DNA from: a virus
DNA: 23,068 nucleotides
Reading direction: 5' to 3' (one strand)
IMG/VR virus record: IMGVR_UViG_3300009104_000128
Coordinates: 1 to 23,068 of that record
Below the pieces are notes generated by a model. That model worked only from the letters and a program-made list of their open reading frames with translations, was not told the DNA's origin and made no database searches. Within the stretch, counting starts at the first letter, position 1, and each line of letters begins with the position of its first letter. This document shows, in pieces, positions 1,503 to 5,453 of this stretch. Made by a program: the position numbers and the translations under genes.

Positions 1503-1731
1503 TGTTTTTTAGGTCTGTGGAATTAAAATCTATTATTTGATCTATGTTTTTTAAAACGATGAGGTCTTGAAGGTTGTTTATAGTGACGCGTTTGATCCCT
1601 CTGTTAGCCGCGTTATCTGCGGCGAACTCTATCAATTTCCGAGCATAGGGTTCAATAGCTTTTGTAGTATCTGAACTAATTTGGATACCACGATTATGAA
1701 ATGCTTTTCTTGCTTTACTTTTATTTAACAT
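1495..1731 (-). CDS. Small basic protein, candidate single histone fold, 78 aa
   Basis: The start at 1731 is set by an SD (GGAGAG). The protein reads as a short helix (residues 4-13), a loop with I18-S19-S20-D21, a long amphipathic helix (about 21-44) ending in Gly45, a basic loop IKRVT (46-50) and a third helix containing NNLQDL. This order resembles the histone fold (helix, S-D loop, long helix, G-(R)-K-T loop, D-I/L helix), with a central helix about as short as in bacterial single histones. This is my reading of pattern and spacing, not a database match. Pro28 inside the long helix is a point against it. The end overlaps the Cas4-like gene by 8 nt. Other small helical DNA-binding folds remain possible. 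Confidence 0.75.
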   Translation of the reverse strand: MLNKSKARKAFHNRGIQISSDTTKAIEPYARKLIEFAADNAANRGIKRVTINNLQDLIVLKNIDQIIDFNSTDLKNND

Positions 1732-1762
1732 TGTCTCTCCAGTTTATTTAGTTTTAAAGCGC

Positions 1763-1842
1763 AGGGTAGGAAACCATAAAACCTACCCTACACTTGACCG
1801 ATAACAGAAAGGAAGGTGTACTTTTTCTTGTACATTACGGTC
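1763..1842 (-). promoter_or_regulatory. Two adjacent hairpins in the leader of the histone-fold-like gene
   Basis: The 150-nt gap between the 72-aa and 78-aa genes contains a perfect 8-bp inverted repeat AGGGTAGG/CCTACCCT (1763-1770, 1782-1789; 11-nt loop). Next to it is a nested hairpin with outer GACCG/CGGTC (1796-1800, 1838-1842; continued by TAA/TTA past a bulged A) and inner TGTAC/GTACA (1817-1821, 1830-1834). In the leftward transcript both fall upstream of the ATG at 1731. No U-tract follows either hairpin, so this looks like a structured leader or processing site rather than a terminator. Confidence 0.45.
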
Positions 1843-1881
1843 TATATTTTTCAATCTTATTATTAATGTTTCTAACCATAT

Positions 1882-2100
1882 TTAGTTAGAAACTAACTCT
1901 TTCTGTTTATTATTCCAATCTATTAATTTTTCCATTTCTCGATCTCTTAGCTCCTGTACGATCTCAATGGCTCTTAATAGACCCACCATCACCATTGTAT
2001 TCTCCGCATAGGGATGGTTCTTTAGTTTCCTATTTTTATTTCGTATCTTTTGAACTTCTTTACGAATGTTCTTCAACACTACTTCTGCTTTTATATCCAT
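1882..2100 (-). CDS. Small coiled-coil protein, 72 aa
   Basis: The start at 2100 has a good SD (AGAGAGGAAT), although it lies 41 nt inside the end of the upstream zinc-ribbon gene. The protein is almost entirely helical and highly charged: KNIRKEVQKIRNKNRKLKN, then MVGLLRAIEIVQELRDREMEKL. This fits a helical hairpin or coiled-coil dimer. No family is recognised. No cysteine, signal or membrane segment is present. Confidence 0.75.
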   Translation of the reverse strand: MDIKAEVVLKNIRKEVQKIRNKNRKLKNHPYAENTMVMVGLLRAIEIVQELRDREMEKLIDWNNKQKELVSN

Positions 2101-2314
2101 TATTCCTCTCTACATAAAGATCACCACCGTCAAACAATTGTTCACACCTCGGACATTTCATAAACCAATCCATTTTAACGGTGGATGACATTATTTCTTT
2201 ATATTCTTCCCCATATGTTTTTAGATAGATAGGGTCGTCTTTATCTGTGGTACATGTTGGACAATAGTCTATGTACACATCAAACTCCACTATCTCTTTT
2301 TTGTCGTTTAACAT
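2060..2314 (-). CDS. Zinc-ribbon miniprotein, 84 aa
   Basis: Two CxxC pairs (C18/C21 in CPTC and C54/C57 in CPRC), 33 residues apart, form a likely single zinc ribbon. The rest is acidic with a short, polar C-terminal tail. The start at 2314 has only a weak SD (AAGTAAG) and lies 35 nt inside the preceding 65-aa gene, so translation may depend on coupling. Function is unknown. Such phage miniproteins often bind host proteins or nucleic acid, which is inference here. Confidence 0.75.
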   Translation of the reverse strand: MLNDKKEIVEFDVYIDYCPTCTTDKDDPIYLKTYGEEYKEIMSSTVKMDWFMKCPRCEQLFDGGDLYVERNNGYKSRSSVEEHS

Positions 2315-2477
2315 AATTCTTACTTAATAACATGCGATGTAACTCGCGTGCTATTTCCTTCCTTGCTGACGGCGACGAAAGATTTCCACCTTCATACCTA
2401 GATAGAACCAGTATTATTTCCACTTCTATCTCAGGAATATCTTCTGTTTGCTCTTTATAATATACATCCATTGACAT
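2280..2477 (-). CDS. Hypothetical protein, 65 aa
   Basis: The ATG at 2477 follows a clear SD (AAGGAAT). The N-terminal half is acidic (EQTEDIPEIEVEIILVLSRYEGG) and the C-terminal half is basic and helical (ARKEIARELHRMLLSKNYVKRQKRD). No family is recognised. The stop falls 35 nt inside the following zinc-ribbon gene. A structured 87-nt inverted-repeat element ends 18 nt upstream of the start and would be in its leader. Confidence 0.7.
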   Translation of the reverse strand: MSMDVYYKEQTEDIPEIEVEIILVLSRYEGGNLSSPSARKEIARELHRMLLSKNYVKRQKRDSGV

Positions 2478-2494
2478 ATTCGATTCCTTAAATT

Positions 2495-2581
2495 TATGCG
2501 GGAATATCCCTGTTATCAGCTAAGGAGGTACATCCATGATAGTTGTAGGCATGGAGGTTGGATGCTAGGTATTCCCGCATA
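2495..2581 (-). other. Element D: 87-nt intergenic element bounded by a 12-bp inverted repeat
   Basis: TATGCGGGAATA at 2495-2506 is perfectly complementary to 2570-2581. Inside, CATCC (2531-2535) can pair with GGATG (2560-2564), and CCATG/CATGG gives a hairpin with an 11-nt loop. In the leftward transcript it falls between the stop of the 54-aa gene and the SD of the 65-aa gene. The - strand carries GGATGTACCTCCTTAG, which closely resembles the anti-SD 3' end of 16S rRNA. The acceptor-like stem looks like that of a tRNA-Gly, but no T-arm or normal anticodon arm follows. A structured RNA is the best guess. Confidence 0.55.
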
Positions 2582-2582
2582 T

Positions 2583-2747
2583 TTATAACTCTTCTGGCAA
2601 TAGTTCGTAGCCATCGCACTCTTCATTGTTTTCGCACAATAGACCAAGTTCAACAATATCATCTTTTCCATACTCTTGCCATACTAATTGTTCTTCGCAA
2701 TTAGGACATTGTTTTTCTGATGGTTCTCCACCAATTATAAAATTCAT
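2583..2747 (-). CDS. Zinc-ribbon miniprotein, 54 aa
   Basis: The ATG at 2747-2745 has an SD (AGGAGA), and the start overlaps the stop of the upstream membrane protein as ATGA, which supports both genes. Cysteines C14/C17 (CPNC) and C38/C44 (CENNEEC) would form a compact zinc site. The protein is strongly acidic, with nearly no Lys or Arg. The stop lies directly beside the inverted-repeat element D. No family is recognised. Confidence 0.75.
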   Translation of the reverse strand: MNFIIGGEPSEKQCPNCEEQLVWQEYGKDDIVELGLLCENNEECDGYELLPEEL

Positions 2748-2926
2748 TTCTTCTTCTCCTGTACTCTAAATTTATCACCAACATGATAGTACGTTACATA
2801 CCCACTAAAGTTTGGTTCTCCAGATATTACTGTTACCCAAACCTCGTCATGGTAATAACATAAATACATACCAAGTGGATACACAGTAATAAAACTAGCC
2901 ATTAATATTAATATAAAAATAATCAT
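2744..2926 (-). CDS. Small membrane protein, 60 aa
   Basis: The N-terminus is a hydrophobic helix (MIIFILILMASFITVYPLGM) with no preceding charge, typical of a membrane anchor or uncleaved signal. A polar domain of about 35 residues follows and ends in Lys-rich EKKK. The start overlaps the stop of the upstream 101-aa ORF as ATGA and the stop overlaps the next start the same way. It has no recognised family. An envelope-directed accessory role is inference. Confidence 0.7.
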   Translation of the reverse strand: MIIFILILMASFITVYPLGMYLCYYHDEVWVTVISGEPNFSGYVTYYHVGDKFRVQEKKK

Positions 2927-3228
2927 ATGAGCCTCGGGTTTTGCATTAGGGTGGAGTCTAGAATCTCGCCCACGTCTCGGTTCTCTCCGAGAAGAGGCTC
3001 ATATATATTATGGGGCGGTCTACAGATTTTCACTGCTCTTGCGTTTATACTTTGAGGTTTTGTTTTATGTCGACTCCCTCTGGCATTAACCGCCCCATAT
3101 TTTAAAGGACTCGGCATAGGTGTTAATTCACTGTCTACTTTAAGGATACAAAATGAACATAAAACAAAAAAACAGTAGATCAACCGAGTCCCTTTATTAA
3201 TTTTCTTCATGTAGTCTTTAATGCACAT
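2923..3228 (-). CDS. Putative membrane-anchored protein, 101 aa, overlapped by three inverted-repeat elements
   Basis: The ORF starts directly after the upstream stop (TAG-ATG) and ends in an ATGA overlap, which argues that it is translated. An alternative start is Met7. Neither start has a clear SD. Residues about 15-31 are a hydrophobic, Cys-containing segment (LIYCFFVLCSFCILKV), a possible signal anchor. The remaining 65 residues are Arg/Asn/Pro-rich with a loose internal repeat (NARGS, NARAV). Nearly the whole gene (2925-3196) is made of three back-to-back long inverted repeats, an unusual constraint on a coding sequence. It may be a genuine gene carrying structured elements, or an RNA locus that happens to be open in this frame. 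Confidence 0.5.
   Translation of the reverse strand: MCIKDYMKKINKGTRLIYCFFVLCSFCILKVDSELTPMPSPLKYGAVNARGSRHKTKPQSINARAVKICRPPHNIYEPLLGENRDVGEILDSTLMQNPRLI
2925..3004 (-). other. Element A: 80-nt element closed by a perfect 11-bp inverted repeat
   Basis: ATATGAGCCTC (2925-2935) pairs perfectly with GAGGCTCATAT (2994-3004). Internal pairing includes a 6-bp hairpin TCTCGG/CCGAGA (2975-2980, 2987-2992; 6-nt loop) and an arm with GGG(x)GAG opposite CTC(x)CCC around 2950-2970. This gives a multi-arm fold like a D-armless cloverleaf, but without a standard T-loop or anticodon loop. It is the last of three abutting elements in the transcript direction. Confidence 0.6.
3009..3099 (-). other. Element B: 91-nt element closed by a perfect 11-bp inverted repeat
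   Basis: TATGGGGCGGT (3009-3019) pairs perfectly with ACCGCCCCATA (3089-3099). Weak internal stems exist (CAG/CTG near 3023-3035, GAGG/CCTC near 3054-3080). It lies 4 nt from element A and 3 nt from element C. Its interior contains TTTTGTTTTATGT (3058-3070), which recurs inverted in element C. Confidence 0.6.
3103..3196 (-). other. Element C: 94-nt element closed by a 12-bp inverted repeat with one bulge
   Basis: TAAAGGACTCGG (3103-3114) pairs with 3184-3196 with a single bulged C, giving 12 pairs of which GGACTCGG/CCGAGTCC is contiguous. An inner 6-bp stem TCTACT/AGTAGA lies inside the loop (around 3134 and 3174). It codes for the hydrophobic N-terminal segment of the 101-aa ORF. It is the first of the three elements to be transcribed. 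Confidence 0.55.
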
Positions 3229-3744
3229 CTAGCTAGAAAGTTCCACACTTTTTCTTCTTTTTAATATTTCTGCTTTGCAACACCTAGAATCTTCTTTAAT
3301 CTCCCACTTATTATATGACTGTAAACTCCCGCAAGCACCACAGTATCCTAAAAAGAATCCCGAAGTGTCCATTTTCCATTGTAATTCCTGCTCCGCTTTT
3401 TCATCTGAAGATTTAAAATCCCAGTTCTTAACACACATCCGCCAGTTCTTAATTTTTGACCGACCTCTAAACCATCCCACTGATTCATAGTGAGCATAGA
3501 ATAATTCTGCGTTTGCTTTTGGGTCAACAATCTTCTTTTCTTTAAAATAATCCTCTACCATCTTAATATCTTTAGGTTTTGCTCTGTATTTCCTTATATT
3601 CTTAGGTTTTTTCCCAAAGTATTCTGGCAACACTCTATATAATTCCGCTTCTTCTTCTTCAGATTTTATAAACCAAGTTGTCCACTGTGATTCATTTATA
3701 TCTGGAAAACTAATCATATAAGGATATTTAATTATTTTCTGCAT
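3229..3744 (-). CDS. DnaD/DnaT-like motif protein with C-terminal zinc ribbon, 171 aa
   Basis: Residues 82-108 (FYAHYESVGW...IKNWRMCVKNW) match the motif found at the C-terminus of phage and bacterial DnaD/DnaT-like replication proteins, where it takes part in ssDNA or helicase-loader contacts: aromatic-rich Y-E-S-x-G-W, then K-x-W-x(5)-W. A zinc-ribbon-like set follows (C135, C138, C155, C156). The N-terminal 70 residues hold no recognised replication-initiator domain, so this looks like an orphan module rather than a full initiator. The start overlaps the upstream 73-aa gene by 13 nt. A role in phage DNA replication is likely but inferred from this motif only. Confidence 0.72.
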   Translation of the reverse strand: MQKIIKYPYMISFPDINESQWTTWFIKSEEEEAELYRVLPEYFGKKPKNIRKYRAKPKDIKMVEDYFKEKKIVDPKANAELFYAHYESVGWFRGRSKIKNWRMCVKNWDFKSSDEKAEQELQWKMDTSGFFLGYCGACGSLQSYNKWEIKEDSRCCKAEILKRRKSVELSS

Positions 3745-5424: not shown

Positions 5425-5453
5425 CTTATACGCACTAGGTTTCAAAAAGTTCC
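5425..5453 (-). promoter_or_regulatory. GGAACTTTTT-type leftward promoter, copy 1
   Basis: GGAACT (5453-5448), followed by a T-run, is separated by 17 nt from TATAAG (5430-5425). The same box with a comparable downstream TATA-like element occurs at 6943-6972 and 10340-10369. All three lie in gaps upstream of leftward genes. This is a second, more distal promoter for the 5247 gene in the 243-nt gap 5248-5490, which has no gene. Confidence 0.45.

Follow-up and report, generated by a model that had tools for sequence, protein, structure and literature searches.

Phage tRNA clusters and the small stable RNAs of T4 are small structured RNAs that lie in a row and may be cut from a precursor. Among phage RNAs, the prohead RNA of phi29 is known to dimerize by loop-loop pairing. 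Functional RNA homodimers are considered rare in nature (PMC7357161). The GOLLD, ROOL and OLE RNAs of phages and bacteria form homo-oligomers, partly through kissing loops (PMC12286853), and the dimerization site (DIS) of HIV-1 commonly presents the hexamers GCGCGC, GUGCAC or GUGCGC (PMC5874298). Here we describe an array of structured RNA elements in a group of uncultured, probably marine phages, the last member of which, element A, is predicted to pair with itself through a palindromic loop.

The array and its relatives

The window, that is the whole stretch of DNA analysed, comprises 23,068 nucleotides and corresponds to a linear record of an uncultured virus (IMGVR_UViG_3300009104_000128); terminase and portal genes are present, the terminase being only about 22-28% identical to those of known phages. 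A sequence-only reading had reported three tRNA-sized elements in tandem, each closed by its own terminal inverted repeat and separated by linkers of 4 and 3 nt, and all three were found where it had placed them, with linkers of those lengths. The features of the array are as follows:

2925-3004, minus strand: element A, an RNA family found in 23 virus sequences and always the last module; the arms of its terminal helix, P1, lie at 2925-2935 and 2994-3004 (11 bp, perfect)
2976-2991, minus strand: hairpin P2 of A, CUCGG-AGAGAA-CCGAG
2949-2971, minus strand: hairpin P3 of A, which bears the palindromic loop
2957-2962, minus strand: UCUAGA, the palindromic hexamer of the P3 loop and proposed contact of a kissing-loop dimer
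3009-3099, minus strand: element B, a replaceable module with a 12-bp terminal helix; arms at 3009-3019 and 3089-3099 (11 bp perfect, 12 bp including one G-U on the gene strand)
3103-3196, minus strand: element C, a covarying RNA family with a terminal helix (arms at 3103-3114 and 3184-3196, one bulge), a bulged second helix and a 3-bp hairpin with the loop AAUUAA
3216-3244, minus strand: phage promoter ahead of the array, GGAACTT-N16-TTAAAG (motif match)

The claim that such a tandem arrangement is not due to chance was borne out. Perfect stems with a minimum of 10 bp and 5 G/C and with arms 40-120 nt apart number only four in the whole window (those of A and B, the one closing a further element, D (2495-2581), and a fourth at 1237-1333) and two of them abut, whereas dinucleotide shuffles of the window contained a mean of 0.35 and a maximum of 1. 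In the 944 kb of phage loci fetched, stems of 9 bp or more stand in tandem in just two places, each belonging to the array family. Folding of both strands, which had been suggested as a check, showed that A, B and C each surpass shuffled sequences (z -3.3 to -5.6).

More than 80 virus loci were fetched through the neighbouring 171-aa protein and a Cas4-like nuclease, and then through a profile of the nuclease. In the closest five loci, once aligned, element A is kept throughout, including loci that are only about 72% identical. A scan for the conserved hairpin of A recovered L014, a more distant phage with a similar array and a nuclease 62% identical. Searches of the phage collection with nucleotide sequences and with the Cas4-like protein matched nothing, and neither a scan for the motif of the second clade nor a search with the downstream MKKNSV-type gene added a new genomic context. 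No known RNA family had been recognised initially, and Rfam 15 agrees, since nothing in the window and six relatives reached the gathering threshold; a permissive search of 1700-3300 returned a single miRNA match, attributable to chance. No account of the feature was found in Rfam or in the literature searched.

Element A and its palindromic loop

Ten sequences of element A aligned without structural guidance (alignment A3) support the helices P1, P2a, P2 and P3, P2a being an extra hairpin of one clade. In this alignment 94% of cells are paired and 13 pairs are changed on both sides, against 8.3 in shuffles; when the helices are slid by 1-3 columns, less than 50% remain paired. The 86 sources searched with a covariance model built for A contain 22 copies (E 2e-8 to 1e-22), on the gene strand throughout, with opposite-strand matches starting only at E 0.06, and L104 provided the 23rd copy (E 3e-19). 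Members are 74-123 nt long, and across the 23 copies, in an alignment fitted to the model, 17 pairs are changed on both sides. The sequence-only reading had suggested that structure rather than sequence is maintained, and had named relatives without stems or compensatory changes as contrary evidence; the relatives retain the stems, and with compensatory changes. The feature is real, conserved and structured, the structured nature of the elements being strongly supported.

P3 of the window is short, with 3 bp and an internal loop, and the outer helix of P3 pairs poorly across the alignment. Its loop in the window has eight bases, two followed by the hexamer. As in the HIV-1 DIS, the loop hexamer stays self-complementary while its sequence changes: it is a palindrome in 23 of 23 copies, in the four versions UCUAGA, GUCGAC, UCCGGA and GUGCAC, whereas at all other alignment positions of A a palindrome occurs in at most 6% of sequences. 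The first version being given, the chance of three further independent palindromes is about (1/64)^3. That relatives have re-formed the palindrome from other bases is evolutionary evidence for selection on self-pairing, of which loop-to-loop pairing of two copies of A would be the simplest cause. Since the hexamer is exposed in a loop, two molecules of A may pair into a homodimer, in much the way that HIV genomes are joined ahead of their packaging; homodimerization through a kissing loop is well supported by sequence, even if the UCUAGA duplex is weak (-5.2 kcal/mol). The predicted homodimer constitutes a strong prediction that is easily tested, as A has only about 80 nt and both the formation of the dimer and its loss by mutation could readily be followed.

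A distant A-like RNA stands alone behind the same type of promoter in L084 (1413-1523), with a terminal helix of 17-18 bp. This candidate (E 0.0026) retains the promoter and most of the fold and has no palindromic loop, so that across the wider A-like RNAs dimerization may not be universal. The L104 copy, for its part, lies with the promoter and a module E on a viral contig (JAOMCQ010000022.1) within an assembly of Candidatus Nitrosopelagicus, an ammonia-oxidising archaeon; this is a weak hint of a host and fits poorly with the bacterial-looking promoter.

Promoter and strand

The motif GGAACTTT-N15/16-TATAAG-N2-GTATG, or a close variant of it, is found upstream of the array in all relatives bearing A except L007, and matches the window twice but none of 100 shuffles. 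For the L024 group, transcription starting where the TATAAG box predicts would begin at the first base of the stem of the first module. The second match in the window lies at 5425-5453 on the minus strand, and the same motif precedes ordinary genes in L001 (12440), L006 (4905), L014 (2550), L062 (2596 and 2985) and L064 (3058). In L007 the place of the promoter just ahead of the array is taken by a tRNA T-arm-like sequence, GGTTCGAATCCCCC (about 1390-1445), in which ARAGORN finds no tRNA.

The array RNA is likely read from the minus strand of the window, which is that of the neighbouring genes, because of the covariance scores, the promoter, the direction of the genes and the G-U pairs, which on the opposite strand would become C-A mismatches. 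Diagnostic G-U pairs are present in P1 of L007, in P3 of L008 and in the terminal stem of the C-like element of L008. Fold energy was rejected as a criterion, the two strands being close in the window's clade, where the opposite strand folds equally well or better. The likely strand, the promoter and the palindromic loop had all escaped the first reading.

Modules preceding element A

The elements had been presented as alike, which holds insofar as each has its own terminal helix; they are not equivalent, however, A and C being conserved families and B having been seen only in the window. L001 has no B, and other elements stand in its place in L002, L007 and L008. For C, 98% of pairs are formed and 6 pairs are changed on both sides; matches to its model are confined to these arrays, with weak scores for L008 and L025 and, in L007, a similarity visible by eye. 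The remaining modules of the relatives are each closed by a terminal helix of their own. The layouts, 5' to 3', are:

window, C-B-A; L001, C-A; L002, C-Y-A
L007 and L008, X-A
L014, L021, L023 and L037, E-C-A
L036 and L104, E-A; L025, E-F-G-A
L024 group, H-A; L084, A alone

A occupies the final position in every array; phages vary both in the modules that precede it and in the genes that follow. A pairing of the CUCUCUCC loop of C with the GGAGAGA loop of A, considered in L021, was dropped because it is absent from L014. A type III toxin-antitoxin RNA was also rejected: the modules are unrelated in sequence rather than tandem repeats, and no ToxN-like neighbour was found with Pfam and PADLOC. 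Among the array neighbours tested against these two resources, only the Cas4-like nuclease and a WYL_2 protein match anything, and no toxin adjoining the array was recognised.

Other structured elements were observed in the window. Element D (2495-2581, minus strand, 87 nt) lies between two genes, just ahead of the start of gene 2280-2477; it is conserved in L001, L002, L007 and L008, its terminal stem shows compensatory changes, and the sequence at its core, ACCUCCUU, is similar to the anti-Shine-Dalgarno end of 16S rRNA. The gap upstream of gene 1495-1731 on the minus strand contains two further hairpins at about 1757-1850, GGGTAGG/CCTACCC and GACCGTAA/TTATCGGTC.

Proposed role and alternative explanations

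Structure, covariation, palindromicity, association with the promoter and modularity are all supported by the sequences; from them we infer dimerization itself, processing into separate RNAs and action in trans. In the proposed mechanism, the phage promoter would drive a minus-strand transcript of interchangeable, structured non-coding modules (C, B and A in the window) followed by small genes. Each module has its own long terminal helix and the linkers are short and A/U-rich, which makes cutting into separate RNAs possible; a host ribonuclease could thus release RNAs of about 50-125 nt whose ends are protected. A would fold into three or four helices exposing the palindromic hexamer in a hairpin loop, two molecules would pair loop to loop, and the dimer would most likely be the active form, acting in trans on a protein or an RNA of the host. 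We consider this model as a whole, with exchangeable structured modules fed by a promoter and an A homodimer likely active in trans, to be rather probable. A more specific version, in which one promoter feeds a row of exchangeable RNA cassettes, each an independent structured RNA, that differ by phage and always end in a homodimeric trans-acting RNA, for example a factor of host takeover or counter-defence, is put forward tentatively, being somewhat doubtful at present.

The best surviving alternative, although unlikely, is that the array acts in cis as a leader, the nascent RNA binding RNA polymerase so that downstream terminators are ignored, as put of phage HK022 does, or stabilising the mRNA. 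The array lies directly behind the promoter just as putL lies directly behind PL, the put RNA is of about 70 nt with two stem-loops (PMC9378689), and no terminator follows A, which may therefore simply be part of an mRNA continuing into the next genes, these having the same direction. A put-like RNA, however, needs no dimer, which would leave the maintained palindrome unexplained; other genes, lacking an array, use the same promoter, several unrelated modules may stand ahead of A, and in L014 a new promoter behind the array separates A from the gene that follows, in favour of an independent RNA. A trans-acting RNA is preferred over a put-like leader acting on RNA polymerase.

Translational or ligand-sensing control by A of the gene that directly follows it appears improbable. 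In the window, L001, L007 and L008 the start codon (2924-2926 in the window) directly adjoins the 3' arm of P1, and the window stem extends into this codon, which opens the 60-aa ORF 2744-2926, and covers GAGG, a possible ribosome site; but in L002, L014 and others the start lies at a distance of 19-74 nt and has a ribosome site of its own. Moreover, relatives have unrelated genes downstream: in the window's clade the ORF that follows the array encodes a small membrane-like protein, most others have a member of the MKKNSV family, and L014, L023 and L084 have unrelated ORFs. These differing ORFs, together with the extra promoter of L014, make gene-specific cis control by the array unlikely.

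It is very improbable that palindromes and stems act as DNA, e.g. as protein-binding or recombination sites. Palindromes are identical on both strands and B resembles a clean insertion between C and A, yet the covariation fits single-strand helices that include G-U pairs, and a DNA site would be conserved in sequence, instead of changing while remaining palindromic. The in-frame palindromic inserts in a coding gene that had been offered as a Rickettsia-like parallel can practically be dismissed, because, although a 101-aa ORF (2923-3228, minus strand) is open across the array in the window, it has no PHROG family match, and in relatives (L008, L014 and L036) each of the three gene-strand frames is interrupted by stops where the array lies.

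Comparison with known systems

The array, with its promoter and a putatively dimerizing A, shares features with several described RNAs. Like A, the put RNA of HK022 is a structured phage RNA of similar size found soon after a promoter (PMC9378689), but put consists of two stem-loops acting in cis; A has three or four helices counting the terminal helix, which encloses two or three hairpins, as well as a palindromic loop and often several modules ahead of it. Phage tRNA clusters and the T4 small stable RNAs differ from the array in their folds, and ARAGORN finds no tRNA in the window or the fetched loci. GOLLD, ROOL and OLE would share with A association through kissing loops, although they are several hundred nt long with many contacts (PMC12286853). 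The phi29 prohead RNA, which also pairs loop to loop as proposed for A, uses two different complementary loops and is part of the packaging motor; no Rfam match links A to it or to GOLLD, ROOL and OLE. Arrays that swap modules behind a fixed promoter suggest a changing phage stock of small structured RNAs, comparable to small early proteins. The loop itself resembles HIV-1 SL1/DIS and other retroviral palindromic kissing loops: in both cases a six-base loop palindrome is preceded by two flanking bases on its 5' side, and A and the HIV-1 DIS have the GUGCAC version in common. A is unrelated to a packaged RNA genome and the overall folds are unrelated; the resemblance between the phage and retroviral loops is a convergent one.
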